This document shows positions 673 to 60,992 of a stretch of 64,000 nt of DNA, in pieces (position 1 is the stretch's first letter; every line of letters begins with the position of its first letter). The stretch is taken from positions 1 through 64,000 of IMG/VR virus record IMGVR_UViG_3300032086_004532, one strand, 5' to 3'. The notes under the pieces were generated by a model, which worked only from the letters and a program-made list of their open reading frames with translations, was not told the origin of the DNA and ran no database searches. Origin of the DNA: a virus. A program made the translations under genes and the position numbers.

Positions 673-917
673 TTCAGAAATCTCCGGCGAAGTCTCTCGG
701 CTACGGTGGGGGCAGAGGAAGTCTTCATGCGCCCAGCGGCAACAAAATCGTCGCACACACTGGCGGGCTCTGCCTCAAAAGAAAACTGCTCGCAGTATCC
801 AGATCCATCGTTGGTTGCTCTGAAGTACGAACAGACCTCACAGCGGTTATCCCCCGCTGTGGGGCCATAGTTGGGAGCGTCTTCAACTCCCGCTATTTTT
901 GGGAAAAAGTGAAACAT
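669..917 (-). CDS. Small four-cysteine metal-binding protein
   Basis: An 82-residue protein with cysteines at 26, 29, 42 and 55 (C-x2-C-x12-C-x12-C), followed by an acidic DDF segment. This spacing resembles the small phage proteins often annotated as high-potential iron-sulfur-like or zinc-binding; which metal is bound cannot be told from sequence. Residues 59-82 are basic. Its start overlaps the stop of the 637-residue gene upstream, and its stop overlaps the start of the next gene, so translation is probably coupled. Its function is unknown. Confidence 0.7.
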   Translation of the reverse strand: MFHFFPKIAGVEDAPNYGPTAGDNRCEVCSYFRATNDGSGYCEQFSFEAEPASVCDDFVAAGRMKTSSAPTVAERLRRRFLK

Positions 918-2830
918 CAGGAAGCCGGGGCGGTGGGCGGAGCGTCCGCAATGTCACGCCACTTGTCTTCGCGCTTGCGGAACATGTTTTTGAGGCGAGC
1001 ACCGACTCCTGCCTTTGCCTGGCGAGCCTGCTCTGCGGCGGCCTCTCGGGCTCCAGCAGCCATGTTGGGAACCGCGTTACGAACCTGCCTCTCTACTCTC
1101 TTGTCGATGTCAGAAACATGCTGCCCCATAGCTTCGTTGATTTTGTCGACCTTCTTGTCCAGTGTCTTATCGACTTCCTTCATAGCTTCTCGCGCGGCAT
1201 CTCTGGCCTTACGGTCCATGAAGGTTCCGGCTTCATCAGCGACACGCTTGATTTGCGGTACCGCCAGCTTCTTCACTGCGGCCGTACCGCCAACCCCGAG
1301 TCCACCTCCCACTGCGGCGTCAATTGCCGCCGATCCTGCGTACTCCTTCACGCGCCGCTTGAACTCATTGGAGTCAATCTTCCCGGAACGTCGATCTCGC
1401 ATGTCTTGGATCATCTGATTCTTGTTTTTCAGCAGGGATCGAGTTCCCATGGCTCCTGCACCAAGGGTTCCCATTGCGACATACGGGTTCTTGAGTACGG
1501 AAGCAGACTTTACTGCCTGCGGATCCTCAAGGGTTCCTACTCTCGGCATCCCGATCTCGGCTCGCTGCTGCTGACGCTTGGCAAGTCCGCGCTCCTTGAG
1601 GCCGATATTTGCGGCGGAAATCGCACCAGAGGTAATAAGCCCCTGCTTCATTCCCTTTTTTGCCCCAGCTTGTATCGCCTTCAGTCCACCCTTTCGGGCT
1701 CCAAAGCCTCCTCGGACGCCAGCTACCGCAAGTCCTGCACCTACCGGAAGAGCAAGGTTCTTGAGATTTGACTTGAGCCGGCCCCCGAGCCCTTTCTGGG
1801 CCTGGTATCGGTCTTCAGTCTCTCGTCCGCGCAGCTTTGCGATGGTGCGAAGGCGGTCAGGGTCCATGGTGAACGCATCTGCTTGCGCCCCCTTCTCTTG
1901 GAAGTAGACACCGGGAAGCCCGGCGGCAGATGTAACGCCGCCACCAATCAGCGCTCCCTTCAGTGCCGACTTCTTGGCATCTGATCTGTGCATTTCGGAG
2001 GCATCTCGGAGCATTTCCTTTGCGGTATCTCCCAGCTCCCTTGCGCGGGCAGACAGGTACTGGCGCTGCGTGCCGCTAAATGCCTTACGGGCGCCGGCCT
2101 TCGCTGCTGCAGCTTGATCGGCCAGTCGCTTGAACTTCTTTGAACTGCGGAGAACTCCCTCCGCCTTCATGGCGCGCAGTGCCCCCGGCGCGTACCCAAG
2201 GCCGGCACCAAGACCGATTCCCGTACCGATCATGTGCGCGACATTTGCACGGCGCTGTGTCGTATCTCTCGCGTTGCTGCCTCTGGGGCGAGGATTGGGA
2301 GCAGAGGAAAGCTTGGTGACGCCCATCGACGAAGTTCCAGCCCCAACAGTCCGGCCGAAGCCCTGACGCTGCTGGTACGGCGGGTACATCTGGTCGATGA
2401 GGGACTTCTGGCGGTGCGGCTGGCGTGCTGGACCTTCGAAGACTGCGGGATTGAGCAGGGCAGCCTCGACCCTCTCTGAAGTCAGGGGATAGACATTGCC
2501 ACCCAGCTCGAAGGTATGGAAGGGCTGGAGCTGTCGATCTGCGATGATCACGGGGATCTTGATCATGTTCTGCGGGTTCTTCGACTCGGTCGCTGCAGCG
2601 GGATCGTTCTTCGCCATCAGCAGTGCATGGCCGAAAGCAAACCCAGCCTCGGGCTCTACCCGCTGCAGGCTCAGATCGACCTCGTACTGACTGAGGAAGG
2701 GCAGCTGCTGGTGCAGATTGCTCAGCACATGCGCGGGCCACTTCGTGTCGTCATCCGGCATCTTGGCAATCGACGCCTGCTTCTCGAAGAAAGCATGCGG
2801 ATCGACCTCGGGAAGGAAAAGAGGGGTCAT
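917..2830 (-). CDS. Ala/Gly-rich internal virion or ejection-type protein
   Basis: This 637-residue protein has an N-terminal globular part (about residues 1-170) and then a long Ala/Gly/Lys/Arg-rich part. That part contains several glycine-rich hydrophobic stretches, for example near residues 200-215, 290-310 and 360-375, separated by basic helices. A predicted charged helical region rich in DKK and EAM repeats covers roughly residues 530-600. Amphipathic proteins of this style in phage structural operons are often internal or ejected proteins that contact membranes. Here that is inference from composition and position only. The N-terminus contains FFEKQASIAKM, reminiscent of short motifs in other virion-type proteins of this window. 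The gene starts 15 bases downstream of the spike gene. Confidence 0.6.
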   Translation of the reverse strand: MTPLFLPEVDPHAFFEKQASIAKMPDDDTKWPAHVLSNLHQQLPFLSQYEVDLSLQRVEPEAGFAFGHALLMAKNDPAAATESKNPQNMIKIPVIIADRQLQPFHTFELGGNVYPLTSERVEAALLNPAVFEGPARQPHRQKSLIDQMYPPYQQRQGFGRTVGAGTSSMGVTKLSSAPNPRPRGSNARDTTQRRANVAHMIGTGIGLGAGLGYAPGALRAMKAEGVLRSSKKFKRLADQAAAAKAGARKAFSGTQRQYLSARARELGDTAKEMLRDASEMHRSDAKKSALKGALIGGGVTSAAGLPGVYFQEKGAQADAFTMDPDRLRTIAKLRGRETEDRYQAQKGLGGRLKSNLKNLALPVGAGLAVAGVRGGFGARKGGLKAIQAGAKKGMKQGLITSGAISAANIGLKERGLAKRQQQRAEIGMPRVGTLEDPQAVKSASVLKNPYVAMGTLGAGAMGTRSLLKNKNQMIQDMRDRRSGKIDSNEFKRRVKEYAGSAAIDAAVGGGLGVGGTAAVKKLAVPQIKRVADEAGTFMDRKARDAAREAMKEVDKTLDKKVDKINEAMGQHVSDIDKRVERQVRNAVPNMAAGAREAAAEQARQAKAGVGARLKNMFRKREDKWRDIADAPPTAPAS

Positions 2831-2845: not shown

Positions 2846-3922
2846 TCAGTCAGTCTCAAGAGTACTTGAGAGAAGCGGTGCCCGGTCAGAGAGTGACGCT
2901 ACAATATCACTTAGCAGCAAATCTGTCTGTGTTGTCGGATAGCCCAGTGTATTCAGGGCGGTCTTAATCTCAGTCAGAGATGCGCTGAGTTTTGTGAGAA
3001 AAGTCGTCCCCTGTACTACGGGCTCGGTAGTGCCAGTATCAAGAGTCTTTGCGACTCGAATCTTCTCATTGGTCTCGATAAGCGTGGCGCCGTTTCTCGC
3101 GACCCCGAGATTTAGGGCAGTCGGCTCTCCGAAGTAGAGGGTTTCTTGGCTCTTGACCTGGAAGGAGACAACCCTCTTTGCGGGATCTGGCGCAGACGGC
3201 TGAAGTGTGGTGACCGTCTCCACGGTGCCGTCTGACAAGATCAAGGGCTTCGTAACGGGGAGGAGCGGAGGCTCAGGAATCGGGGCATCGAGCTCGATTC
3301 TCGCACCCTCGGTGTTGCCCATTTGAGTGCGGACAGTCCAGGACTTTGCCGTAGCGAACTCCTTGACCTCCTCCGTTTTTCTCGTGGTCAGATCTCCGAA
3401 GTTGTCCTCTTCCCTTGTCAGGGTCTTCCACTCGGTCGATCCCCCAAGAGTCTCGACCTTCCAGTTCTCAGCAATGCAGAGCAGCTGGTTCTTGAATGGA
3501 TTGGTGATGATACGCGAAAGAGCAGTTCCTCGAAGCTCGGTCACTCCTCCTCTGCGCACAATCAGACCATTCCCATCTCGAGTCAGGACAGTCATGTCCC
3601 CCGGGTTCAGGAACGGGCGGTTGGAATGATAGGAGCCAGGCTGCCCATCTTCTGTGCTCGCAGAAGCAAACGGCGCAGAGAGAAGCAGGAACGACTCGCT
3701 GCCGTCGGACGGGACGCAGACAAATACCTGCGCCCCGATTTCTGGCATGTAGTGAACTCCCTCTCCGAACGGAGTCGAGTACAGAGAGGGAATCGTGACG
3801 TTCTGAAAGCTTCTTTTTGCAGCGAGGCAATCGACCACACAGACCCATCGGGATGGATCAACGGAAGTAATCCTTCCCTGATAGATACGGGCATCTACAG
3901 GCTGTAGGCCGGAAGAGGGCAT
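2846..3922 (-). CDS. Baseplate spike / gpV-like assembly protein
   Basis: A 358-residue protein. Residues about 12-85 look like the OB-fold of phage baseplate assembly protein V / T4 gp5: G-x-ITSVDP-x2-W, then IPSLY, a glycine pair, YMPEIGAQVFV and an FLLLSAPF strand. The rest is beta-rich with many Thr/Val strands and ends in a helical tail, compatible with a trimeric spike. The ATG at 3922 lies 7 bases after the RNA polymerase stop, and the stop codon itself is part of the AGGAA ribosome site, so the two genes are translationally linked. A VgrG-like or tail-fibre chaperone role is less likely given the OB-type start. Confidence 0.65.
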   Translation of the reverse strand: MPSSGLQPVDARIYQGRITSVDPSRWVCVVDCLAAKRSFQNVTIPSLYSTPFGEGVHYMPEIGAQVFVCVPSDGSESFLLLSAPFASASTEDGQPGSYHSNRPFLNPGDMTVLTRDGNGLIVRRGGVTELRGTALSRIITNPFKNQLLCIAENWKVETLGGSTEWKTLTREEDNFGDLTTRKTEEVKEFATAKSWTVRTQMGNTEGARIELDAPIPEPPLLPVTKPLILSDGTVETVTTLQPSAPDPAKRVVSFQVKSQETLYFGEPTALNLGVARNGATLIETNEKIRVAKTLDTGTTEPVVQGTTFLTKLSASLTEIKTALNTLGYPTTQTDLLLSDIVASLSDRAPLLSSTLETD

Positions 3923-3929
3923 TCTGTTC

Positions 3930-6900
3930 CTACAAGAAAGAGAAGAATCTAGTCTTTTTGGGTTGGGCAGTCTGCGACTTGTCGGCGGGCTTTGGAGTCG
4001 CCGTCGATAGACTTACTGGCGTCACAGGCTTTGGTAGTCCTGGGGTCTTTACTGTCTGCGAGGGCTCGAGGCCAAACTCGGCTCCGTGCGCGATGCCAGA
4101 AATCGGGTGACCGTGGATGTCGGACTTCCAGTTCTGCGCTGCACCTTCGATGTATGTTTCCTTGAGGCGCTGGAAGTTCAGTCGTGCCATCCAGTCTTCC
4201 TGCCCTGCAAGAGGCATCTGGTTCATAGCCTTCAGCTTTGGCTTGTGCTTGATGGGACGCTTGCCCATTGCCTTCAGGTCGCGGTTCTTTGCCTCGACCT
4301 CTGACATCGGTACAAGCTGTCCGCGCAGGTATGAAGAGTCATCTCCTGGATCGTCGATGCGGGTCAAGTCGGTCATCGCACGAATCACCGTCTCAATGTT
4401 TCTGCGCCTCTCGTGCCCGGTAGTCGGCACATACAGCGCACTGAGGGAATCGGTAATGTGGTTTCGAACCGCCCCCATGCTCTTCGTAATCCGAAGAATG
4501 TCATGGGGATTTTTTCTACCCGTAGAAAGCGCCTCGGCCTTCTTGACCTCGTATCCTACGCGAATCTGAGGAAGGAGCTGGTTCGTATGCGGAACGACAT
4601 GCTTCTTCCCATCGATCGTTACAGTCTTTCCGCCCAGTGCGTCTGTCTCAATCTTTTGGATCTTCCCAGAAATCTCGGCAAGAGTCGCCGATCCCTTCAG
4701 AGTTGAAGGAACCTTGAACAGGTCCTCTGCTGCGGTGAAGTAGTCGCCGACATCGCTCTCTCCACCCACACCGCCAGTGTGGAAGGTCTTCATCTGCATC
4801 TGCGTGATCGGCTCACCAAGAGCGTGGCCGGCGATAACCCCGACATTGGTGCCGACCGTGTAGAGCGTTCCCCGCTCGTTGAGGCCGTAGCAGGTGGAGC
4901 AGATGCCCTTCACTTCTTTGCAATTCAGGGGAGAGCGGACCAAGACCTTTGCGGGTCCAGACTTCTTGATTTGCTGTCGAACCTGAGATGTAACCAGCGA
5001 CCCCCTTTTCAGGGTCTGCCCGTCCTTGAGGGGGACATCTCCAGCAAGGAAGCGCCCCTCGACATCTGCATCCATAGAAGGCAGCAAAGTACCCTTTGTG
5101 GTGCCGCAGTCTTTGGACCGAATCTTGTTGTCGATGACCGTGTTGATCAGCTCCTTTGTCAGAGCTCCGGGCTTCGCAGTGGAAGATGCCCGGTCGATTG
5201 TTCCCTTACGCGCACCGTGAAGTGACGCATAATACTGGGAGATCGGAAGTCCTTCTCCGAAGGACTTTGTGATCGGGAATGCAACTGGCTTGTTCATGGG
5301 ATCCTGAACAATCATGGGGCCCATGACCATCTGGCTAAACTGGCCCCAGTTTCCGCGTGCCCCAGACTGCGCCCATTCCCACATTCGGTTGTCTTGGCGG
5401 CGGTTGTAGCGATCCTCGCCGACAGACTTCAGCTCCTTTTGGGCCTTCAGGTACAGCTTGACGATCTTGTCGTCCTTGCTTTGCTGGCTGCCGCCGCTCT
5501 TTCTGATCTTTGCTTCCTCTGCCTTGTACTTCTTTAGAACCTGGTCCCGGATCTCCTTGCCGTCGTGGAAGTCATTCAGACTGAAGCTTGACCCGTTCTT
5601 ATAGGACAGGTTGAAGCCCAGATTCTTCCACTGATCGATCATTTTGGAGAACTCTTCTGGATTGGCTCTCGCAATCTCGGTGGCAAAACCCTTCATGCCG
5701 CCCTTGGCCATACGAAAATCCTTGTCGTACAGCAGGTCGTCTCGGTTTTTGAACTCCTTAGGGAGAGTGCTGTTGATCAACAATCGGCCCGGTGTCGTTG
5801 GACGCTTGTAGCCCATCACTGTGATCACATCATAGGACTTCAGCTTCCCGGCCTTGAGGGCCTTGATTGCTTGCACATCCGTGTATGTGCCGGACTTTTT
5901 CTTGCCCCATTTGGTCGCCTGATAAATACCGAGAACGGCGTCCATACTCGGAGCAACCATCAGCTTATTGCTGGTAGGAGAAAACAGATTCTTGGAAGGC
6001 ATCATGGCCTTTGCCTCGTCCACCGCCTTTTCGGTGATCGGGACATACATGGCCATCGTGTCGCCATCGAAGTCAGCGTTGAAACCTCCTGTGACGAGGG
6101 GATGAATTTTGATGGACTTCCCTTCTACAAGTTTCGGGCGGAACGCCATGATTGAAAACATGTGGAGAGCGGGGTCGCGCTTCATCATTGCTGGGCGGTC
6201 TTTGATGACTCTTTCAAGGGCCTCATAGACTGCTGGGTGCTTCTTCTTGACCATGATCCGCGCTTGCATCGGAGATGATGCGCGGCCCATGTCCTTGACC
6301 AGAGCCTTGATGACGAACGGCTTGTACATCTCGAGCGCCATCTCTCGGGGCATGCCGACTTCATCCAGTGGCATCTCAGGGTCTGGAGTAATGACAGAGC
6401 GACCAGAGAGGTCCTGTCGTTTACCCAGAACTCCAGATTGGAAGAATGACTGCTTCGGCTGGTTCAACCCAGACAGCTTGTCCATCAAGCTGGGAGCATG
6501 CCTTCCCTCAATCTGCATCCCTGTCAGCCGCAGAGACTTGACCAGCTTGTACACCTCGGCCTGGTTCTTTTGGATTTCCTGAACCGGGAGGCGCTCCTTC
6601 TCAGACTGCTTGAGCTGGCGAACCATCGCCCCGGTCTGTGCGTACATCACATTGACGGGATCGATAATCTGTGTCCCATCGAAGCCGATGCTCACCCTTC
6701 GCAGTGTCGGTGGAAGGATCGGCAATACAGAGTTCATGTAGGCGTCGACCGGCTTTACTCCCAGATCTTTGAGAGCGCGAAGATAGCGAACTCGCTTGTA
6801 TCGGACATTCAGCTCCGCTTCTTTTGCGGTCTTGAGCTCGGCCTCTGCCTTCTTCAGCTCAGCATCGACATTCATCTTTGAGAGCTTCTCTTCAATGACC

Positions 6901-9900
6901 TTGAACCCAGACTTGCTGCCCACGGCCCCTTCAGCAGTCAGCAGCTTTTGGAACTCAGGCTTCTTCATCCCAAGAAGAGATCGAATTGGTTCCTCAAAAA
7001 GAGGATTTGGAACTTTCATCCCGAGGTCCATGTGGGACCACTTCTCTCCTTGAAGGCCTCCGGTCTTGCCGCGGTCGAAGAGACCGCCTCTCTCTTCTTT
7101 GGTCAAAGACCCTTTCGCAGACAGAGTCTTTTCTGGGAATGCCAGCGCACCAGAGCTCTGTGCCTTTGTCTGGGCATCCGTCATCGGCATGAGGGAGTAC
7201 TCTCTGCCGCTGCGCTCGGAAGACACCCCCATCGCCTTCATGTACTTCTGGAACTGAAGCATGGAGCGCGGCACCTTTGGAGTAGGTGGGCGCTGCCCAA
7301 GAAGAATCCGCTTCCAGGTGTCCTCTGCCTGTTCCTTGTCAGACTTGTAGGTCTGCATCTCGCGGAGGTTGAACTTCGCGCCATGCGCGAGCAGCGTGTA
7401 GGTATCGAGGCCACCAATTCTCTGGCCGCCCTTTCCGATACCTGAACCCTGCGCTGCCTCACCGGTAGTCTTGTATCCGTAGCCAGCTCCACCAGAGCGA
7501 GCAGAGATCTTCTTCTCAGCCTGGTGGTCGAGCTTCAGCAGATACTGCGGCCCAGTGAATACTGGTCCAAGACTTTCTCCAGTCTCGGGGTCGAACAGCT
7601 CTTCGGTATCTGAGATCTTGTGCTTCTTCAGCTCGGACTTCACGAGTGCCGAGTAGTCGACATCCGGATTGAAGTTGTCCACCACGAAGGGCTTGCCAGT
7701 CTTGAGCGCGATCTTGCCTGCCGCAGTCTCGAGAATCTGCCCGGGGTTCATACGGGACGGAACACCGGCAGGAGACATCAGAACCTGGACTGCGTTGCCC
7801 TTCTTGTCCTTGGGCATCTGATCATCAGGAAGGATTCTAGTGACGATGCCCTTGTTACCATGGCGACCAGAGAGCTTGTCTCCGACTTCCATGGTCTGCT
7901 CGGTACGGATGAAGACCGCGATCTTCTTTCCAGTGCTTACGACACGGACGACCTTTCCTCCGTACTCGTGCTTCCAGCGTTCTTCGGACGGGTTGAAGTC
8001 TCGGATTGCGCCCTTGAGCTGCTTCTTGATGTTTGCGGTCTCTCGGCTGTTGTCTTGCTTTACCAGCTTTGCGATCAGAACATCATCGGGCTCTACAACA
8101 GTGCCGACCTTTACGATTCCGCGGTCATCCAGTTTACGGAGAATGTCCGGGGTTGCCTTTTCAGGACCTGCATACCGACGCCACAAAGCCTTATCGACCA
8201 CCACATTCGAATACATCTCCGTCTCAACAGAGTGAAGGTGGTTTGACACGAGCTTCTTCGCTGCAGACTCTGAGATGACGATTCCGTCCTCAAAGTTGTA
8301 GCCCTTGTACGGGATGTAAGCGACGCGCAGATTTGTTCCCAGAGCGAGCTTTCCGCCCTTCGTGAAGTTGGAATCTGCGAGAAGCTGCCCCTTCCTGACT
8401 TTGTCCCCGACCTTTACGGCTGGAGTGGAATCCAGCATGTGCTTTGCGCCGTTCAGCGGGTAGTTGTCGTACAGGGCGTGGACATACCTCTTCCCGTCGG
8501 CACCCTTCACTACGATCTGCTTCTTGTTGACGCTGATGACTTGGCCAGTTGCACTGCTCGTGACCGAGGCGGTCGATCCTACTAGGTCTTCGTATGCTGC
8601 ACCCTTTGCTGCGGCCGTCTGAACAAGTGGAGCTTCGCGCTCTTTGAGGCCGACCGCTTGCTCCTGGTGCTTGGCAGCCATCATCGAACGGTTGCCGTTG
8701 TCGTTCTGGATGAACGGAATCAGGTTTGCACTGACCGCAAACAGCAACTTTGCTGACGGCAGGACATAGTCCACCTCTTTCCACTGGCGCTTTGAGGTGT
8801 TGCGATCCTTGTCGTAAACAACCACATCAGGCGTCTTTGGCTTTACAGAAACAGTGCCGTCAGACTTCTTCGTAATCTTGACCTGATCGGGGAACGCAAC
8901 AACTGCCCGTTCCAGATCTGCCGCTGACTTTCGCTCTACCTTACCAGTACGTACATTCACAACCTGCGCCATCAGATCGTGCCCGACCTTCTGGGCTCCC
9001 ATCGGCACATGCAGGTGGATACCAGTCTGCTGGCTCTCTGGGGTCTGCAGAGGATCGAGCACACCCAGATGACTGGGGTTGATCATCTTGTCCTGCATCA
9101 GGTTGACATTGTCGCCCTTGATCCCACCAAATGCTGCGCCAAGAATCGTCGTCTTCGTGTGATTGGAAACGAACTGCAGGGGATTGGTCTGGGTGGGAAG
9201 CTGTGCCGCCTTGAACGGCTTGAGAATCGCAGCGCCGTACCCAGATGCCGACGCAGGGATGATCTCTTGGATTGAGTTCTTGCGGTCAACATTGTTTCGG
9301 ATCTTGCGAGTCAGGGAATATGCCGTCTTCCCCTTTGTCAGCTCTTCTGCGACAAAGTCTTCGACCCCGTAAAGGCGCTTGTTCGCGATTGACTGTCGGT
9401 CGTCTTCCTTCGCGCGCCCCTTACTGATGTCCACCAGCTTCTTCGCAGAGAGAAGGAGTGCCTCTCCAGTGATGCTGGAAAACTCCTTTCCGAGCGCAGA
9501 CTTCATGGTCTGCTTGCTGACTTCCGCACCCTCAAAAGTAGCGCGGGTAAATTCTCGCGCAACGGCAAGGCTGGGCTGCTTGTACTTCGTCTTGTCCCTA
9601 CGACCTTCAATGGCTTCGTGAAATTTGACGATGTCAGCTGGCTTGCTGTACCGCTTGTTGACCTCGTAGACCCCATCTCCGAGCGCAGCTCGAATCTTGG
9701 CGTCGTCGATTCCCATCGCGTTGAGAATGGGGATTACTGGAATCTTACGAGTAGAAGATCCTCCGCTTTTGATCTGAAGGTAGATGAAGCCAACCTTCTT
9801 GGGGTCTCTTCTTTCGATGAAGATGTCGAACGAGCCCACCTTGCTACCTGCTGCCACATTCCACTTGGCAACCAAGTCCCCGTTCTGGGCCTCTGCGTGG

Positions 9901-10283
9901 TACGCGCCGGGGTTTAGGCGGAACACACTATCGAACTGCTTCTCATTTCCATCAACAATGAAGCTGTAGCGCGTGGTGATCTTGGGCAGCTTCCCCAAGG
10001 TTCTCTTTCGCTGATCAATGACCTTGCCGGTTTCTTTTTCAATCAGCCGAAAATGTCCGACAATGTCAGGTCCCCAAGTGTTGCCATTGAGTCGTGCATC
10101 CAGCTGGCTGTCATAGTTCGCGGGATTGAACTTGGCAGATCCTGTCGCAGAGTCGTCTTCGATCTCGAGCTTTGTCAGCTCAAGCCGGTGAACGTTTCCC
10201 TCGATCGGAAACTGCGAAGAAATGGCTTCTTTGGTCTTCTGGACCAGAAGCCTGTAGGACTCGAGGGGATTCAGATTCGGCAT
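3930..10283 (-). CDS. Single-chain multisubunit-type RNA polymerase: fused beta and beta-prime
   Basis: A 2117-residue DNA-directed RNA polymerase core in one chain. The beta half (about 1-1025) shows GYNFEDGIVISES, GRHGNKG at 806-812, GVPSRMNPGQILE and the C-terminal GAKFNLREMQTYKSD block. The beta-prime half follows almost without linker, with VLPILPPTLRR, LGKRQDLSGRSVI, the catalytic magnesium loop NADFDGD at 1402-1408, the bridge-helix SGARGNWGQ, the trigger-loop-region block GVIAGHALGEPITQMQ and the second zinc site (DCGT, then C-x6-C-x2-C near 1788). The beta-prime N-terminal zinc domain is absent. Its length is well below separate E. coli beta plus beta-prime (about 2750), with lineage-specific inserts missing and a Pro-rich tail. 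No alpha or omega gene is seen. It is cotranscribed with the spike gene, so it could be a virion polymerase. The enzyme assignment is very sure; where it acts is inference. Confidence 0.97.
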   Translation of the reverse strand: MPNLNPLESYRLLVQKTKEAISSQFPIEGNVHRLELTKLEIEDDSATGSAKFNPANYDSQLDARLNGNTWGPDIVGHFRLIEKETGKVIDQRKRTLGKLPKITTRYSFIVDGNEKQFDSVFRLNPGAYHAEAQNGDLVAKWNVAAGSKVGSFDIFIERRDPKKVGFIYLQIKSGGSSTRKIPVIPILNAMGIDDAKIRAALGDGVYEVNKRYSKPADIVKFHEAIEGRRDKTKYKQPSLAVAREFTRATFEGAEVSKQTMKSALGKEFSSITGEALLLSAKKLVDISKGRAKEDDRQSIANKRLYGVEDFVAEELTKGKTAYSLTRKIRNNVDRKNSIQEIIPASASGYGAAILKPFKAAQLPTQTNPLQFVSNHTKTTILGAAFGGIKGDNVNLMQDKMINPSHLGVLDPLQTPESQQTGIHLHVPMGAQKVGHDLMAQVVNVRTGKVERKSAADLERAVVAFPDQVKITKKSDGTVSVKPKTPDVVVYDKDRNTSKRQWKEVDYVLPSAKLLFAVSANLIPFIQNDNGNRSMMAAKHQEQAVGLKEREAPLVQTAAAKGAAYEDLVGSTASVTSSATGQVISVNKKQIVVKGADGKRYVHALYDNYPLNGAKHMLDSTPAVKVGDKVRKGQLLADSNFTKGGKLALGTNLRVAYIPYKGYNFEDGIVISESAAKKLVSNHLHSVETEMYSNVVVDKALWRRYAGPEKATPDILRKLDDRGIVKVGTVVEPDDVLIAKLVKQDNSRETANIKKQLKGAIRDFNPSEERWKHEYGGKVVRVVSTGKKIAVFIRTEQTMEVGDKLSGRHGNKGIVTRILPDDQMPKDKKGNAVQVLMSPAGVPSRMNPGQILETAAGKIALKTGKPFVVDNFNPDVDYSALVKSELKKHKISDTEELFDPETGESLGPVFTGPQYLLKLDHQAEKKISARSGGAGYGYKTTGEAAQGSGIGKGGQRIGGLDTYTLLAHGAKFNLREMQTYKSDKEQAEDTWKRILLGQRPPTPKVPRSMLQFQKYMKAMGVSSERSGREYSLMPMTDAQTKAQSSGALAFPEKTLSAKGSLTKEERGGLFDRGKTGGLQGEKWSHMDLGMKVPNPLFEEPIRSLLGMKKPEFQKLLTAEGAVGSKSGFKVIEEKLSKMNVDAELKKAEAELKTAKEAELNVRYKRVRYLRALKDLGVKPVDAYMNSVLPILPPTLRRVSIGFDGTQIIDPVNVMYAQTGAMVRQLKQSEKERLPVQEIQKNQAEVYKLVKSLRLTGMQIEGRHAPSLMDKLSGLNQPKQSFFQSGVLGKRQDLSGRSVITPDPEMPLDEVGMPREMALEMYKPFVIKALVKDMGRASSPMQARIMVKKKHPAVYEALERVIKDRPAMMKRDPALHMFSIMAFRPKLVEGKSIKIHPLVTGGFNADFDGDTMAMYVPITEKAVDEAKAMMPSKNLFSPTSNKLMVAPSMDAVLGIYQATKWGKKKSGTYTDVQAIKALKAGKLKSYDVITVMGYKRPTTPGRLLINSTLPKEFKNRDDLLYDKDFRMAKGGMKGFATEIARANPEEFSKMIDQWKNLGFNLSYKNGSSFSLNDFHDGKEIRDQVLKKYKAEEAKIRKSGGSQQSKDDKIVKLYLKAQKELKSVGEDRYNRRQDNRMWEWAQSGARGNWGQFSQMVMGPMIVQDPMNKPVAFPITKSFGEGLPISQYYASLHGARKGTIDRASSTAKPGALTKELINTVIDNKIRSKDCGTTKGTLLPSMDADVEGRFLAGDVPLKDGQTLKRGSLVTSQVRQQIKKSGPAKVLVRSPLNCKEVKGICSTCYGLNERGTLYTVGTNVGVIAGHALGEPITQMQMKTFHTGGVGGESDVGDYFTAAEDLFKVPSTLKGSATLAEISGKIQKIETDALGGKTVTIDGKKHVVPHTNQLLPQIRVGYEVKKAEALSTGRKNPHDILRITKSMGAVRNHITDSLSALYVPTTGHERRRNIETVIRAMTDLTRIDDPGDDSSYLRGQLVPMSEVEAKNRDLKAMGKRPIKHKPKLKAMNQMPLAGQEDWMARLNFQRLKETYIEGAAQNWKSDIHGHPISGIAHGAEFGLEPSQTVKTPGLPKPVTPVSLSTATPKPADKSQTAQPKKTRFFSFL

Positions 10284-10303
10284 GAAACTTCTCTCCGGAA
10301 ACC

Positions 10304-10320
10304 GTCATAACTATAACAGC
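10304..10320 (-). promoter_or_regulatory. Candidate phage promoter motif upstream of RNA polymerase
   Basis: A 17-base sequence reading GCTGTTATAGTTATGAC on the minus strand, 20 bases upstream of the polymerase ATG. It matches a second copy at 16121-16137 at 13 of 17 positions (GCTnTTAnnnTTATGAC). Both lie just upstream of minus-strand virion operons. The TTATGAC end resembles a -10-like element, but no clear -35 box is seen. This is a candidate only. Confidence 0.4.
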
Positions 10321-10395
10321 CGGAACATAGCCACCGGCATTGGAGTACACATGACCACGATGTTCATTCATTTGTCGTTCTGCAGCACCGATCCC

Positions 10396-10428
10396 GCCGA
10401 TGAAGGGGGCAACGACCCCTTCGGCGGC
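10396..10428. other. Imperfect hairpin in divergent intergenic region
   Basis: GAAGGGG (10402-10408) pairs with CCCCTTC (10416-10422) around a 7-base loop. The stem is extended by a T-G wobble, one mismatch and four more pairs. There is no T-run on either side, so it is not an ordinary terminator. It lies between the polymerase gene and the plus-strand zinc-finger pair. Confidence 0.55.
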
Positions 10429-10467
10429 ACTGACCGCTTCGGAGAGTGGTAGTGATTTCGACGATCT

Positions 10468-10500
10468 TCTGGATGGCTGCCATTGTAGCAGCCATCCAGA
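10468..10500. other. Perfect 13-bp hairpin with 7-base loop
   Basis: TCTGGATGGCTGC (10468-10480) and its exact reverse complement (10488-10500) flank the loop CATTGTA. No T-run follows on either strand. It ends 21 bases before the first possible start of the plus-strand zinc-finger gene, so it would fall in that gene's leader. It could be a processing, attenuation or protein-binding element. Confidence 0.65.
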
Positions 10501-10521
10501 GTTCTTCGGACATCATCGACG

Positions 10522-10866
10522 ATGAGATCAATGCCGAAGAGTAAGAAAAGCAGCCTCCGGGCTCGGCTTCGTGCCGAGCTCGGGGCGCTGCCCGATCGAC
10601 CACACGCTACTGTTTTACTCCCTAAAACTCAAGAGGAGGACACGCTACAGCACTACTGTCCGCTGATTGAGGAGAAGTGCGGACTGATGGAGTGCCGGGG
10701 GTGTGAGGCCATTCACAGCGCAATCTCCTACGACGAAACCTGGGTCTGCTCAGAGTGCGTGGGAGAGGGCCTCAAGCCACATCCGTACTGGACTGCTGGA
10801 GATTGCGACAGCTGCGGGGACTACAGTAGCTTTCTGATCTTGGTGACAGATGCCGATACCGTATGA
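10522..10866 (+). CDS. Small zinc-finger protein, first gene of a reversed pair
   Basis: The frame encodes up to 114 residues. After a basic Arg/Lys-rich N-terminus come three cysteine groups: C near 46 and 53, the MECRGCEAIH motif, WVCSECVGEG, and CDSCGD near the C-terminus. Together they resemble two or three zinc ribbons. The start is uncertain: ATGs at 10522 and 10531 have weak ribosome sites, while a strong AAGAGGAGG at 10631-10639 lies inside the frame with no standard start right after it. Its stop overlaps the next gene. It is encoded against the surrounding virion operon. Function unknown; an RNA- or DNA-binding regulator is possible. Confidence 0.55.
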   Translation: MRSMPKSKKSSLRARLRAELGALPDRPHATVLLPKTQEEDTLQHYCPLIEEKCGLMECRGCEAIHSAISYDETWVCSECVGEGLKPHPYWTAGDCDSCGDYSSFLILVTDADTV

Positions 10867-11101
10867 GTGTGAATGGTGCGGAGCAGCGGCAGCAAGGAAT
10901 GAGAAGATGGTGTGCCTCTCTCGGCACACCGTTCTTCGTGGCCCTCGCCACTACCGCCTCAAAGAAGCAGAATTCTCAGACCAGGGACCTGAGATCATGC
11001 TGCACGAAGCCTGCCTCATCCAGAACTCAAAGGAGATTCTGGAGAGGCTGTACGAGGGAGTTCAGGTCGATCCTCCGAAGAAATGGAAGATCTCGGCTTA
11101 G
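10850..11101 (+). CDS. Small CxxC protein, second gene of the reversed pair
   Basis: An 83-residue protein starting at the ATG in the end of the preceding gene (17-base overlap). It has an N-terminal CEWCG knuckle, a single cysteine near residue 22 and a HEAC group near residue 52, consistent with one zinc site. The C-terminus is Lys/Pro-rich. Its TAG overlaps the TAA of the converging portal gene by two bases, leaving no room for a terminator, so the two transcripts must run into each other. I do not recognise the family. Confidence 0.6.
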   Translation: MPIPYECEWCGAAAARNEKMVCLSRHTVLRGPRHYRLKEAEFSDQGPEIMLHEACLIQNSKEILERLYEGVQVDPPKKWKISA

Positions 11102-13152
11102 CCGACCTGTCTTCCGGGATCGGCCTGCGGATTTCCGGCCGGCGCGGGGTTCTTCATCGCGTCGGCCGGGTTTGTCTGGGAGCCCCGGTCATTCATTAGC
11201 TGTACTACCAGCTTGTAGAGCGGCGGGTTTTCCATCTGCATCTGCTGGAGGGCCTGGTACATGGCGTCCTCACCCTGCTCTCTTTTTAGCGTGCGGAAAT
11301 ACGACGCCGCTCTTTGCGCGATGTACCGAAGGTCTACGCCGCCAGAACCAGGCTGAACTTGCGACTGCATCCCTGCCATTGCGGCTGGCATGCCTGCCTG
11401 GTTCGGGCCTTGCGCGTTTTCTTCGTACGCTGTGGCCCCTTCCGGAAGTCCTGGCGTCTGCTGGGCAGCATCTCCGCCCTGCTGCTGCTGCTGCTGCGGC
11501 TGTTGGGCCTGCGCAGCTTGCTGTTGCTGCATCTGCTGAGCCTGGGCCTGCTGCTGCGCCTGCATCTGCTGCTGCTGCATTTCCATCTGGGCTTGCCCCT
11601 GCGCCTTGAGCGTGAGGGCTTGAGCTTTTGCCTGATACCGAGAAGTACGGAGCTGGGCCTCGCCCTGAATATCGGCAGCAGCGACCTGCATTCTGCGGTT
11701 GGACTGGAGCTGCTTCTTGATCTCCTCGCCCATGCGCTCGGATTCCAGATCGAAGTTCTCTCCGATCTCCTCCATGAGGCGGCGATCCGAAATCTTCTGT
11801 GCCTGGTTGAGCTGCAGATAGAACATCGACCGCTGAAGGTCGTCTGCCATGCGGAACTTGTCGAACCGAGTGGGCACCTTCGGCCACTGCATGAACGATG
11901 CGATTTTGCCCATGATGAAGCGGTTCACGAGCTCATGGCGCTGCTTGTTGTACCCGAGGAACATGTTCTCGAGTGCGCGCAGCGAGGTGCTCGATCCACT
12001 CCACTGCAGGCCGCCGAAGATGAACTCGACCGGGATACCCGCACCCGCAAGCATCTGCTCTGCCAAAAGCCGCATCTCTTGGTACATCAGCAGGGCTCGA
12101 CCCTGTCCGCCGATCTGCTGAAACCCAATGTTCACGGGCAAGACCGGGATGTAGTTGTGATCGCGCTTCCACATGTTGATCTCTTCATCAACGCGGCGCT
12201 TCCAGTTGGTCAGGTTGTACGACCCATACGGCCCTTCATTACCTCCCGTGTTCTGTCCCGGGAAGATCATCCGCATCGGGACGATGTTCTCCATCAAGAC
12301 AGCCTCGTTCGCCTTCTTCATCACCTGCAAGTAGAACGCATCCTTGAGCAGGGGGAAGATCAGGGGAGTGCCCCAGCCCTGATCCTTCTGCGCGATGGTC
12401 GGGCGCTTGAGGTGGTAGAGGTTGTCCTCTGAGAACAGGAGCGACTTTCGCTTGCGCGCAGCTTCAAGAAACTCGATGGGCAGAGACTCGACCGTGTCCT
12501 TGTCCCCCATCTTGATGTCGTTGACGACACTACGAGGGAGCCGGAAGTAGTACTTCGTGTGGCCGGTGATCTCGTTGTGCTTGATATCGATGTTCTCGGG
12601 GTTCCAGCGCACGAGACGGATCTTGCGGAAGCTCCGCATGTAGACATCGTGCTGCTTGGCGTAGCCCTGGTGTCCGCAGTCACACTTGTGGATGTAGAAC
12701 TGTGAGTTGCGCCACTTGTAGCGGAAGCGGTTGGTCTTTGCGCGGTACCGGGTCTTGCAAGAGGAGCAGATCAGGTACTTCTCAAACGGCAGGAAGACCG
12801 AAACAAACGCGTTGCCGTAGACGAAGTAGTCGAGACCGACCTCGACTTGGAACGACCGCAGCTTTAGGTGGTCCTCTACCCCCTTGTAAAGCTTCTGCAG
12901 CTCCGGATCTTCGGTCTCGAATACCAGCGGAGTAACTGGATACTCTGCCATCTTCGAACATGCGGCGTTGATGACCGGATTCGTCAGGTAGTAGTACCGA
13001 CACCACTTATGCAGCTCATGCTGGTTCGCTGGAAGAAACTGCTGAGAAACATCGAAGAAGGGGGACGGGTAGCGAATCCCGAAGCCGCGACCACCCTCGG
13101 CCGTGACTGGGCGCGGATTGAACCGGTTTACTTCGCTTGTGATCACATTCAT
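11098..13152 (-). CDS. Portal protein with inserted zinc ribbon and Gln-rich tail
   Basis: A 684-residue dodecameric-portal candidate. The core has the expected early helices (HKWCRYYYLTNPVINAACSKM), a YGNAFVSVFLP strand, a RLVRWNPENIDI wing segment, a long stem-like helix around AFYLQVMKKANEAVL, and the AGIPVEFIFGG-x-QWSGSSTS crown segment typical of phage portals. Two unusual parts are present: a zinc ribbon with C129-x2-C132 and C157-x-C159-G-H inserted in the wing, and a Gln/Ala-rich C-terminal region (about 515-560). The gene is the fourth of an overlapping minus-strand operon and ends tail-to-tail on the zinc-finger pair. The portal call is by pattern rather than alignment but fits the neighbours well. 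Confidence 0.82.
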   Translation of the reverse strand: MNVITSEVNRFNPRPVTAEGGRGFGIRYPSPFFDVSQQFLPANQHELHKWCRYYYLTNPVINAACSKMAEYPVTPLVFETEDPELQKLYKGVEDHLKLRSFQVEVGLDYFVYGNAFVSVFLPFEKYLICSSCKTRYRAKTNRFRYKWRNSQFYIHKCDCGHQGYAKQHDVYMRSFRKIRLVRWNPENIDIKHNEITGHTKYYFRLPRSVVNDIKMGDKDTVESLPIEFLEAARKRKSLLFSEDNLYHLKRPTIAQKDQGWGTPLIFPLLKDAFYLQVMKKANEAVLMENIVPMRMIFPGQNTGGNEGPYGSYNLTNWKRRVDEEINMWKRDHNYIPVLPVNIGFQQIGGQGRALLMYQEMRLLAEQMLAGAGIPVEFIFGGLQWSGSSTSLRALENMFLGYNKQRHELVNRFIMGKIASFMQWPKVPTRFDKFRMADDLQRSMFYLQLNQAQKISDRRLMEEIGENFDLESERMGEEIKKQLQSNRRMQVAAADIQGEAQLRTSRYQAKAQALTLKAQGQAQMEMQQQQMQAQQQAQAQQMQQQQAAQAQQPQQQQQQGGDAAQQTPGLPEGATAYEENAQGPNQAGMPAAMAGMQSQVQPGSGGVDLRYIAQRAASYFRTLKREQGEDAMYQALQQMQMENPPLYKLVVQLMNDRGSQTNPADAMKNPAPAGNPQADPGRQVG
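11478..11592. repeat. CTG/CAG-rich low-complexity tract
   Basis: Runs of GCTGCTG and related triplets encode the polyglutamine/alanine segment of the portal C-terminus on the minus strand. Triplet repeats like this can change length by slippage. They also produce misleading open frames on the opposite strand. Confidence 0.8.
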
Positions 13153-16120: not shown

Positions 16121-16137
16121 GTCATAAGCGTAATAGC
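16121..16137. promoter_or_regulatory. Second copy of the candidate phage promoter motif
   Basis: GTCATAAGCGTAATAGC on the plus strand matches the copy at 10304-10320 at 13 of 17 positions. It lies in the 81-base divergent gap, 42 bases from the minus-strand start at 16079 and 23 bases from the plus-strand start at 16161. It overlaps an inverted repeat, TACGCT-GTCATA-AGCGTA. Both operons could be controlled from here; direction is not settled. Confidence 0.4.
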
Positions 16138-17980: not shown

Positions 17981-18694
17981 ATGATCGGACTCGACGCAAT
18001 CCGCGCGCTGAGCGAGGAGTACAGTCACTGTGACCGGTGCCCGGTTCTGTGCGAAAGTCGAACAGCGCCCGTGTTCGGGACTGGAAGTGTGACGGCAGAC
18101 ATCCTCTATGTGGGAGAAGCACCGTCACTTGAAGAGGATGAGCAAGGGCTGCCTTTTGTTGGCCCCTCTGGAAGGATGCTCCTGCAGCTACTCGAAAAGA
18201 AGTGGCCAGCAGACGAGGAGCTGGATCAGATCCGCACGATTGAAGACAACGACGAATACTTCGATCAACTGGCGGACTACATGTACGACCGGGTGTTCAT
18301 CACCAACTCGGTCCTCTGTCGGACAGAAGATGACCGCACTCCTTCGGCTACTGAGCTTAAGGAATGCCGGGAGCGGCTGCATCAGACCATCTATGCCGTC
18401 GATCCTATCATCATCTTGGCCGGCGGTAAGACGGCGGCCAGCAACCTGGTTGGAAAGAAAGTGGGGATTCTGGATCGACGCGGAGACCTGATGGACATCA
18501 CCATCCAGTCTCCGGTGACGGGAAGGGACATCCGCTACGCGATGCTGCCAGTGCTCGACTGTGGCTTCCTCCTTCGCAAGGGGGACAGCGCGCTGGTGAG
18601 AGAGAAGAAGGGCCACACCTACGACACTCTGGGCGACTTTGGCTACGCCTTGGAGATTGTGAAAACCCATAAACGCCTGACAAGGAGGGCATGA
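17981..18694 (+). CDS. Family-4 uracil-DNA glycosylase with iron-sulfur cluster
   Basis: A 237-residue enzyme that removes uracil from DNA. The four cluster cysteines of the family are present: C17-x2-C20 at the N-terminus (CDRCPVLC), and the pair in NSVLCR and ECRERL separated by 16 residues. The catalytic and uracil-binding motif GEAPSLEEDEQGLPFVGPSG is clear. The family's later HP-type motif is not obvious; the C-terminal third is diverged. A strong AGGAGG precedes the ATG. It lies among replication genes, suggesting repair of deaminated phage DNA or exclusion of uracil. The other possible reading is an inactive scaffold member, which only assay could exclude. Confidence 0.88.
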   Translation: MIGLDAIRALSEEYSHCDRCPVLCESRTAPVFGTGSVTADILYVGEAPSLEEDEQGLPFVGPSGRMLLQLLEKKWPADEELDQIRTIEDNDEYFDQLADYMYDRVFITNSVLCRTEDDRTPSATELKECRERLHQTIYAVDPIIILAGGKTAASNLVGKKVGILDRRGDLMDITIQSPVTGRDIRYAMLPVLDCGFLLRKGDSALVREKKGHTYDTLGDFGYALEIVKTHKRLTRRA

Positions 18695-30753: not shown

Positions 30754-30786
30754 CGAGGCCCCTGCAAATGCAGGGGCCTCTTTTTA
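30754..30786 (+). terminator. Strong intrinsic terminator of the replication operon
   Basis: GAGGCCCCTGCA pairs with TGCAGGGGCCTC around a two-base AA loop (the end pairs may open), followed directly by TTTTT. It lies 4 bases after the last possible plus-strand stop and before the converging 2239-residue tail gene. On the minus strand the stem is preceded by A5 but not followed by a T-run, so it mainly stops plus-strand transcription. Confidence 0.93.
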
Positions 30787-59926: not shown

Positions 59927-60162
59927 TACGTCAAGGCCGCGGACAGCAGGGGCAGGAACTCGGCAGCAAAGGCCTCGGAGTGCAGTCTTCCCAATTCTAT
60001 CGTACGGCGTTGGAGTTGTCGAGTGCCGGTCCTGCCCTCAAGCACTACCAGTAGCAGCTCTTTTTCTCGCAAAAGACGGGCTTCTTCTTTGCGCAAGAGG
60101 GCATCGACCTGCGCTCCCAAAGACGCGACCATAGAGGCATACGGGCCTGCTGCTTCAGCCAT
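59926..60162 (-). CDS. Small helical protein downstream of sigma
   Basis: A 78-residue, mostly helical protein with a Glu/Lys/Leu-rich central helix (VDALLRKEEARLLREKELLLVVLEG) of the sort that forms a coiled coil, and an Ala-rich C-terminus. It overlaps the sigma-like gene stop at its start and shares a base with the next gene. It could be a small partner of the transcription factor or a structural peptide; only the helix is visible. Confidence 0.6.
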   Translation of the reverse strand: MAEAAGPYASMVASLGAQVDALLRKEEARLLREKELLLVVLEGRTGTRQLQRRTIELGRLHSEAFAAEFLPLLSAALT

Positions 60163-60992
60163 CAGAACGCATCCATGTAGTCTTTGTACTTTTTGGCAAT
60201 CCGGTTTTTGACCTGAGAAACCTTCGACGGGCTCCAGCCAAGATTCTTTGCGATCTGACCCATGTTCTCGGTCTTTGGCTTCCCATTCTTGCCAAACAGA
60301 TATTCGAAGACTGCCTGCTCCTCCAGGGTCAGGTCATAGGGCAGCATTTCGACGATTTCTCGGTGAACTGAGGAAGTCTCCTCAAATGGATTCACATCGA
60401 ATCCGCCCTCACCGAGTGTAGGAATCGCAAAGATGTCGGGGCGCACCTCTTTTGCGAGCCGCTCGACCTTCTTGACGCTGATCTTCATTCGATCTGCGAT
60501 CTCAATGGAGGTCGGATCTCTATTGAGCTCTTCGCGCAGGATGTCTTTGGTGCGCTGATACTCGCCGATCTTGTTCGCCTGAGACTCCACGATTCTTGTG
60601 AAGTTCTGGTGCTTCTTCACATACCGGTTCAGGCCACGGAGGTTGTTCGTGACATGAGTGGAAATCACCGCGCCCTTGGCGGGGTCGTACTTGCGCAGAG
60701 CCTTCACAGTCAGTGACCGCGCCTCTGCCTCGACCGTGGGGCGGTACATGCGCGGAGGCGTATGTCGGTTGACCTGAGACGTGATGACCGGATTGAGCGC
60801 AGTCAAGAGGGGCTGCAGCTTCTCAGGGTCCTCATTGGAAGTCTTCCACTGGCGCCACAGATCGATCTCCTTGGCCGCCTTGCCCGTGTACGGGCGAAAC
60901 TTGCCAGTCTTGTAGTCCTTGGTCCCCCAGGTTTTCGGAAACTGGTAGGGGTCCTTGGCTGCAATTTTGAGGAGTCGATCCTTGACGGCCAT
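60162..60992 (-). CDS. Sigma-70-like RNA polymerase sigma factor
   Basis: A 276-residue protein with sigma regions 2 to 4 in order. Region 2 covers about residues 55-130 (LLTALNPVITSQVNRHT, ALRKYDPAKGAVISTHVTNNLR). A region 3-like helical part follows (IGEYQRTKDILREELNRDPTSIEIADRM). A C-terminal region 4 follows (LTLEEQAVFEYLFGKNG, then the helix-turn-helix MGQIAKNLGWSPSKVSQVKN with basic RIAKKYKDY). Region 1.1 is absent. Such factors direct RNA polymerase to promoters. It could serve the phage's own fused polymerase or recruit host polymerase, as T4 gp55 does. It lies inside the tail operon with no dedicated promoter seen. The sigma call is solid; its partner is inference. Confidence 0.87.
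   Translation of the reverse strand: MAVKDRLLKIAAKDPYQFPKTWGTKDYKTGKFRPYTGKAAKEIDLWRQWKTSNEDPEKLQPLLTALNPVITSQVNRHTPPRMYRPTVEAEARSLTVKALRKYDPAKGAVISTHVTNNLRGLNRYVKKHQNFTRIVESQANKIGEYQRTKDILREELNRDPTSIEIADRMKISVKKVERLAKEVRPDIFAIPTLGEGGFDVNPFEETSSVHREIVEMLPYDLTLEEQAVFEYLFGKNGKPKTENMGQIAKNLGWSPSKVSQVKNRIAKKYKDYMDAF

Follow-up and report, generated by a model that had tools for sequence, protein, structure and literature searches.

A bacterial-type RNA polymerase fused into one chain in a lineage of tailed phages

We analysed a stretch of DNA (the window) that makes up positions 1-64,000 of a virus record of 78,495 bases, IMGVR_UViG_3300032086_004532 from IMG/VR. It raises a question: what would a tailed phage do with an RNA polymerase (RNAP) whose beta and beta' subunits are fused into one polypeptide? 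Bacterial RNAP needs alpha to assemble beta and beta'. We propose, with a probability of about two in three, that the gene encodes a working, sigma-dependent, alpha-free, one-chain, two-barrel RNAP that is packaged in the virion for first transcription. What can be read from the sequence is homology over the whole chain, intact catalytic residues, a bridge helix and a trigger loop, no detectable alpha gene, one RNAP per genome, a phage gene of the sigma-70 family, and a place beside the portal gene. We infer the enzyme's activity, its packaging, and its independence from host alpha.

Beta and beta' in a single chain

The RNAP open reading frame (ORF) lies on the minus strand at 3930-10283 and runs uninterrupted from ATG to stop (2117 amino acids), with GGAGAG about 10 nucleotides ahead of the ATG. 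The record's gene set is that of a tailed phage: a family A DNA polymerase, DnaB helicase, primase, UvsX-like recombinase, Baseplate_J protein, portal, and sigma factor.

A first-pass annotation, made from the sequence alone, had claimed that complete beta and beta' are fused here in one phage chain, in the bacterial order, and had suggested a search with hidden Markov models (HMMs) of RpoB and RpoC. Both types of model match, beta and then beta'. Pfam finds Rpb2_6 (4.5e-64), Rpb1_2 (3.7e-32), Rpb1_5, Rpb1_3, Rpb2_7, and Rpb2_2, in bacterial order; from NCBIfam, rpoB spans residues 230-1021 (E = 3.2e-120) and rpoC spans 1121-2055 (E = 8.8e-163). The top NCBIfam scores are to fused beta/beta' models (1.2e-183), yet these scores are under the models' curated cut-offs. 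(Two PHROG families labelled "unknown function", phrog_24349 and phrog_25354, match RNAP beta and beta' over most of the family length.) The parts of the chain are:

3930-10283, minus strand: fused RNAP beta/beta' gene, 2117 amino acids (ORF, domain families, 109 distinct full-length single-ORF relatives)
7209-10283, minus strand: beta half, about residues 1-1025 (NCBIfam rpoB match, AlphaFold model, bacterial beta chains as best PDB matches)
7848-7868, minus strand: GRHGNKG with the active-site beta lysine K811, and K803 just ahead (equivalents of E. coli K1065/K1073)
7083-7208, minus strand: beta to beta' junction, about residues 1026-1067, with no added linker; the beta' N-terminal zipper starts at once (spacing count; conserved in relatives)
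4059-7178, minus strand: beta' half, about residues 1036-2075, with clamp helices, double-psi beta barrel A (DPBB-A), bridge helix, and trigger loop, and with zinc ribbon 1 missing (NCBIfam rpoC match, AlphaFold model, bacterial beta' in PDB)
6060-6080, minus strand: NADFDGD, the catalytic magnesium triad (equivalents of D460/D462/D464 in every phage sequence compared)
4890-5108, minus strand: second zinc site, C1726, C1788, C1795, and C1798 (each of the 26 phage sequences keeps the four cysteines)
4761-4841, minus strand: trigger loop with H1835 (E. coli H936, by alignment)
3933-4058, minus strand: C-terminal tail, about residues 2076-2117, predicted to be disordered and weakly conserved (pLDDT, the predicted local distance difference test, below 50 from model residue 1117; a 45% identity block to the relative L005)

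Residues were compared in an alignment with E. coli and 26 phage sequences. The motifs quoted in the first-pass annotation sit where it had placed them: GYNFEDGIVISES starts at residue 661, GRHGNKG is at 806-812, NADFDGD is at 1402-1408, and the trigger-loop segment GHALGEPITQMQMKTFHTGG is present in the chain. The hallmarks of two-barrel RNAPs are there too, with D1404/D1406/D1408 as the DxDxD of DPBB-A and K803 and K811 as the lysines of DPBB-B. All 26 phage sequences keep beta K1065, K1073, and R1106; beta' R425, D460, D462, and D464; and the trigger-loop residue H936 (E. coli numbering). But the N-terminal zinc ribbon of beta' (C70/C72/C85/C88 in E. coli) is absent from all 26. The word "complete" therefore holds for the active site, where every residue tested is kept, but not for this ribbon. 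At the positions of E. coli D516, H526, and S531, the window's chain has T, N, and T, and it would therefore be expected to be insensitive to rifampicin.

AlphaFold (AF2) was run on two overlapping parts of the chain separately. The model of residues 1-1180 (pLDDT 83, predicted template modelling score (pTM) 0.72) has bacterial beta chains as its best PDB matches (about 1100 columns, TM 0.67/0.75), and the model of residues 960-2117 (pLDDT 86.6, pTM 0.81) matches bacterial beta' chains (TM 0.80/0.77). Structure prediction, another of the suggested checks, thus gives two halves that resemble bacterial beta and beta' almost end to end. Two long helices (about residues 1209-1229 and 1234-1254) are the counterpart of the clamp coiled coil, the docking site of sigma region 2 in bacterial enzymes.

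Relatives, the junction and the tree

Alignment-based scans of IMG/VR found at least 298 relatives in one scan and more in further scans; pattern scans with single sequences, run over viral and cellular genomes, detected none, and a scan with a Rhizobium phage beta' gave no matches. Once near-copies were removed, 166 distinct loci were available for a survey of gene architecture. The whole chain is a single ORF of about 2000-2200 amino acids (a few are longer) in 109 of these, and several others are truncated only by the end of the contig. A second survey found an ORF of over 1900 amino acids in 70 of 76 loci, including a deeper-branching fused group (2244-2329 amino acids). Salmonella phage Arash and Vibrio phage D69 belong to a group in which the chain is interrupted not at the junction but within beta', near window residue 1500 and in some members also near 1110.

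The same ORF recurs in 109 loci, which rules out an assembly or frameshift artefact. It was a stop or frameshift at the junction that, according to the first-pass annotation, would have overturned the fusion; the relatives have the full-length ORF instead, and no gene break at the junction was seen among the 166 loci, although breaks elsewhere do occur. The annotation also considered a full-length single chain to be unusual in a phage. The chain is real, but it is no lone oddity: it is the shared form of a large phage clade, two cultured members of which (Arash and D69) have a secondarily cut version.

At the junction, the beta C-terminal segment was said to run directly into the start of beta', and it does. 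Between the last conserved lysine of beta (K980) and the GLF of beta' (G1067) there are 87 residues, compared to 103 summed over the separate E. coli chains and 93 in a bacterial fusion (L096, a 2610-amino-acid protein from a metagenome-assembled genome). Because 87 is fewer than the two E. coli chains have together, there is no linker. The spacing is constant (82-88 residues) across the fused and Arash/D69 groups, and the junction is as conserved as the sequence flanking it. In one locus (L306) there are in-frame stops, one of which lies some 40 residues ahead of the junction; their pattern resembles stop-codon recoding.

The chain is also under purifying selection, since two relatives (L006 and L007) differ at 371 codons synonymously and at 43 non-synonymously. 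Codon position 3 is the most variable in all comparisons.

We built two maximum-likelihood trees (quick mode, with only SH-aLRT support, the Shimodaira-Hasegawa-like approximate likelihood ratio test); without an archaeal outgroup, they give neither a date of origin nor the relation to archaeal enzymes. As the suggested phylogeny against bacterial and phage chains, they place the fused chains and the split group in one clade apart from all sampled bacteria (support 100, or 98 once the deeper fused group was added). The deeper fused group is sister to the remaining members, so most simply the fusion is basal in the phage clade and the Arash/D69 cut is secondary. L096, which keeps zinc ribbon 1, falls inside Bacteria, and hence its fusion is independent of the phage fusion.

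Other observations concern individual loci. Five RNAP ORFs (L068, L076, L080, L082, and L084) have intein-like in-frame inserts of about 265-415 amino acids at or near HGNKG, NADFDG, or the KSD near the C terminus of beta. There are 11 in-frame TGA codons in the RNAP of L055 (9986-16057) and one in that of L065 (9989-16060). Several of these fall at columns with tryptophan in nearly all relatives, so TGA is probably translated as tryptophan in these phages or in their hosts. A 36.9-kb viral contig (L331) has a fused RNAP of 2200 amino acids (4152-10751) that branches beside Bacteria but outside the phage clade; it may be an independent fusion or a mis-sorted cellular contig. We did not count Staphylococcus phage SA 1306 Kay, Enterococcus phage Efs 1-1-1, or Acinetobacter phage MD-2021a from GenBank as relatives, because their architecture is that of bacterial rpoB-rpoC pairs. 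Similarly, in phage-labelled GenBank records such as OR844998.1, OR846602.1, and CAKLQH020000005.1, the matched stretch is a bacterial rpoB-rpoC pair.

Partners, packaging and alternatives

We searched for partners of the chain in 18 records, namely 16 IMG/VR records (the window's included; many may be fragments) and the genomes of Arash and D69. Neither alpha domain was found in any of the 18, while controls were positive in 13 of 14 genomes; an absence from any single record counts for little, but the two isolate genomes agree with the rest. Matches to the Rpb1 catalytic domain are confined to one ORF in every record. Sigma region 3 was detected in 15 of the 18, including the window's record, and the window's sigma factor is 31% identical to gp10 of Arash over 153 amino acids (E = 1e-24). 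The first-pass annotation had guessed at an alpha-free enzyme and had suggested an assay of promoter-independent RNA synthesis. The alpha-free guess agrees with these searches; the enzyme, however, probably works with the phage sigma factor, rather than by promoter-independent synthesis. The neighbours and the sigma gene are:

11098-13152, minus strand: portal protein, upstream of the RNAP gene (phrog_2833, 4e-7; family HMM)
2846-3922, minus strand: conserved downstream gene, 358 amino acids (78 of 166 loci; median 4 nucleotides after the RNAP gene)
917-2830, minus strand: conserved downstream gene, 637 amino acids (86 of 166 loci; weak similarity to the structural protein gp218 of Arash, HMM E = 0.0025 only)
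60162-60992, minus strand: sigma-70 family factor, 276 amino acids (Sigma70_r3 1.6e-10, phrog_351 1.1e-14)
10304-10332, minus strand: candidate promoter block GCTAT...TTATGAC before the RNAP start (conserved with L005-L007)

In 136 of the 166 loci, the RNAP gene has a portal homologue upstream of it and on its own strand, at a median distance of 831 nucleotides, and the family HMM also finds the portal proteins of Arash (gp204, 7.7e-136) and D69 (D69_0259, 2.4e-142). When sucrose-gradient-purified Arash particles were analysed by mass spectrometry, gp206 gave 128 unique peptides and 3516 spectra, the most of any protein, while gp216 gave 40 and 1210 and the sigma factor gp10 gave 24 and 467 (PMC10585845). 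For comparison, the portal gave 32 unique peptides and the major capsid protein 30; primase, DNA ligase, and two ATP-dependent helicases gave 2 each, and reductases 11 and 2 (PMC10585845). Although gp206 is named "beta" in that paper (PMC10585845), in our comparison it comprises beta and also the N-terminal portion of beta'.

In our proposal, the two barrels of the one chain would fold against each other, so that the dimer of alpha, on which the assembly of beta and beta' depends in bacteria, would not be needed. The phage sigma would dock on this core and steer it to phage promoters. Since RNAP pieces and sigma are found together in Arash particles, we suggest that the holoenzyme is packaged, enters the host with the DNA, and transcribes the early genes with no need of the host enzyme. 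A later event in the Arash/D69 group would have cut the chain inside beta', near the site of the cyanobacterial rpoC1/rpoC2 split, with the pieces still packaged.

Sequence patterns before the gene bear on how it might be expressed. Among relatives, 19 of 51 loci have sigma-70-like elements ahead of the RNAP start, versus 23 of 309 other genes with non-coding upstream sequence and 12 of 907 coding controls; a TCTTAT element is there in 24 of 51 (versus 20 of 309 and 18 of 907 in the same two control sets). These patterns were chosen after inspecting the same sequences, so they are leads only. In the window, TTATGAC occurs only twice (10304-10310 and 16121-16127), on the minus strand and each time shortly upstream of a minus-strand gene start. 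It is a candidate phage promoter element, resembling the TCTTAT(G/C)CC upstream of RNAP in relatives. Across positions 1-57000 of the window, matches to sigma-70-type promoters are rarer than in dinucleotide shuffles, which ignore coding constraint (0 vs. 5.1, 4 vs. 6.9, and 0 vs. 8.4; in all, 4 vs. about 20), a scarcity that speaks for the proposed enzyme. Shared k-mers between the window's intergenic gaps gave nothing useful. Elsewhere in the window, a strong symmetric hairpin followed by T5 (30755-30780), between convergent gene blocks, is a likely terminator, and a plus-strand gene at 17981-18694 belongs to the uracil-DNA glycosylase superfamily, with homology that overlaps a DNA polymerase PHROG.

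Several points weigh against the packaged, sigma-dependent enzyme. The phage chain lacks the arginines with which the clamp helices of E. coli contact sigma, and sigma region 3 was unmatched in 3 of the 18 records (fragments or divergence). Arash belongs to the split group, so packaging in the fused group would carry over by homology. The Arash virion list of 116 proteins contains replication enzymes, and its authors allow for carry-over (PMC10585845). And with sigma-70-like elements just before the RNAP gene in 19 of 51 relatives, the host polymerase could transcribe it during infection. The last two points would fit a polymerase that is made during infection for middle or late genes, with the Arash particle peptides as carry-over: primase, ligase, and nucleotide enzymes are on the particle list, where the authors name carry-over (PMC10585845), and the 12 of 907 coding controls give a low background for the promoter-like elements. 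But the RNAP (128 and 40) and sigma (24) peptide counts stand apart from much of the background, and the gene adjoins the portal in 136 of 166 loci, so we consider this reading unlikely, if still a serious competitor.

It also seems improbable that the fused core, once inside the cell, makes use of the host's alpha (and omega) and is not truly alpha-free. The folds of beta and beta' do appear bacterial-like and well kept in the models, but a virion enzyme must be assembled before use, and the polymerases of jumbo phages function without alpha (PMC7598289). We give still less weight to the idea that the chain is made whole and then cut by a phage or host protease between beta and beta', so that the working enzyme has two subunits. 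Proteins of phage structural modules are often processed and the junction is plausibly exposed; against this, the junction is as conserved as its surroundings, its spacing is constant, and gene breaks, which do occur elsewhere, were seen at this point in none of the loci. Finally, fused rpoB-rpoC exists in cells, as L096 illustrates, but bacterial DNA with a Helicobacter- or Wolbachia-like fusion, or an assembly join, is almost certainly not the explanation: the record comes from the virus collection of IMG/VR and carries phage genes for replication, portal, baseplate, and sigma, its RNAP lies outside all sampled bacteria while L096 lies inside, and the same ORF is in 109 loci. Phage gene context and tree position rule out cellular contamination.

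If the packaged one-chain enzyme is correct, there may be more at stake than one record. Tentatively, and at slightly less than even odds, we suggest that a large and widespread lineage of tailed phages has a complete, sigma-dependent, cellular-type RNAP, with a one-polypeptide core that lacks alpha and omega and is injected with the genome; that this lineage lies beside Bacteria and not within it; and that the one-piece form is basal and was later split in Arash/D69. A one-chain core with its own sigma would then reveal which parts of the cellular enzyme are dispensable. With only two proteins, the system would also suit structural work, engineering, and the study of promoters, and might come to serve as a simple model of cellular transcription. 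With Arash and D69 in culture, packaging and early transcription are testable now.

Comparison with known systems

The closest known proteins are those of Arash (gp206/gp216) and D69 (VPHD69_0261/0264). They are collinear with the window's chain from residue 1, with 32% identity over beta and the N-terminal part of beta', which are fused in these phages too; a portal gene is directly upstream, there is a sigma gene, and no alpha was found. Unlike the window's chain, they are cut inside beta', have AADYDGD instead of NADFDGD, and have an altered trigger-loop segment. They are annotated as "beta subunit" or as hypothetical, and the fusion was not noted.

Among published lineages, the nearest is that of the multi-subunit-RNAP-encoding Caudovirales (mReC), which were described with beta and beta' subunits and contrasted with the fused enzymes of crAss-like phages, with no mention of a fusion (Weinheimer and Aylward 2020, PMC7481178). 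Like the fused clade, mReC are tailed phages whose RNAP is near enough to the bacterial enzyme for detection by HMMs, keeps NADFDGD, and forms a clade outside Bacteria. The window shares the mReC trait (COG0085- and COG0086-type proteins with NADxDGD on a tailed-phage contig with portal and baseplate), but as one ORF. The mReC capsid family PF07068 was found in none of 23 clade records (14 fused, including the window's; 5 deeper fused; 4 of the Arash/D69 type). It was found in RHph_Y65, Carin-5, GN1, and the record of L375, all with separate RNAP genes; the search matched no original control genome, and those positive phages were added as controls. A search for T7-type polymerase (PF00940) likewise matched no control genome, and so says little about whether such an enzyme is present. 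As a capsid protein was detected in only 8 of 97 mReC (PMC7481178), its absence does not set the clade apart from every mReC. The fused clade may be distinct from capsid-typed mReC, and some overlap with mReC, whose RNAP we compared by description only, is possible. A 2023 study noted that a viral gene, given as "RNAP beta and beta prime", lies at the base of the mReC clade, but does not discuss fusion (PMC10159854). One fused locus (L311) is from the same metagenome as mReC1 and mReC3, which is only suggestive. On three other viral contigs (L375, L381, and L404), separate adjacent genes are ordered beta' then beta (about 900 and 1020 amino acids) and zinc ribbon 1 is kept; given the PF07068 capsid protein in L375's record, these may be of the published mReC kind.

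Among crAss-like phages, gp66 of phi14:2 is reportedly a virion RNAP (Drobysheva, 2021). The crAss-like virion RNAP and P23-45 gp96/gp64 (PMC10770324) resemble the window's chain in being virion enzymes with both barrels in a single polypeptide. But these are highly divergent, and crAssphage RNAP is missed by models of bacterial beta and beta', whereas the window's chain is of the bacterial type and has its own sigma. The phiKZ-like jumbo phages have alpha-free, phage-encoded relatives of beta and beta', as virion and non-virion RNAPs (vRNAP and nvRNAP; PMC7598289). These have 4-5 polypeptides, two polymerases per genome, and no recognisable initiation factor (PMC7598289), in contrast to one ORF, one RNAP, and a sigma in 15 of 18 records. 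The fused chain can be aligned well with its bacterial counterparts and can therefore serve as a marker to position viral polymerases in the tree, which crAss-like and phiKZ-like enzymes cannot.

In Helicobacter and Wolbachia, fused rpoB-rpoC also has beta then beta' in one chain, inside Bacteria and with alpha and omega. L096 is nested in Bacteria and keeps zinc ribbon 1, whereas the phage clade lies outside the sampled bacteria and no alpha was found. In the literature we searched, mostly outside subscription journals, we found no description of a fused, bacterial-type, sigma-equipped clade. Related kinds of phage RNAP are already known, as the crAss-like single-chain enzymes and mReC, and the fused, bacterial-type form with its own sigma appears to be new.

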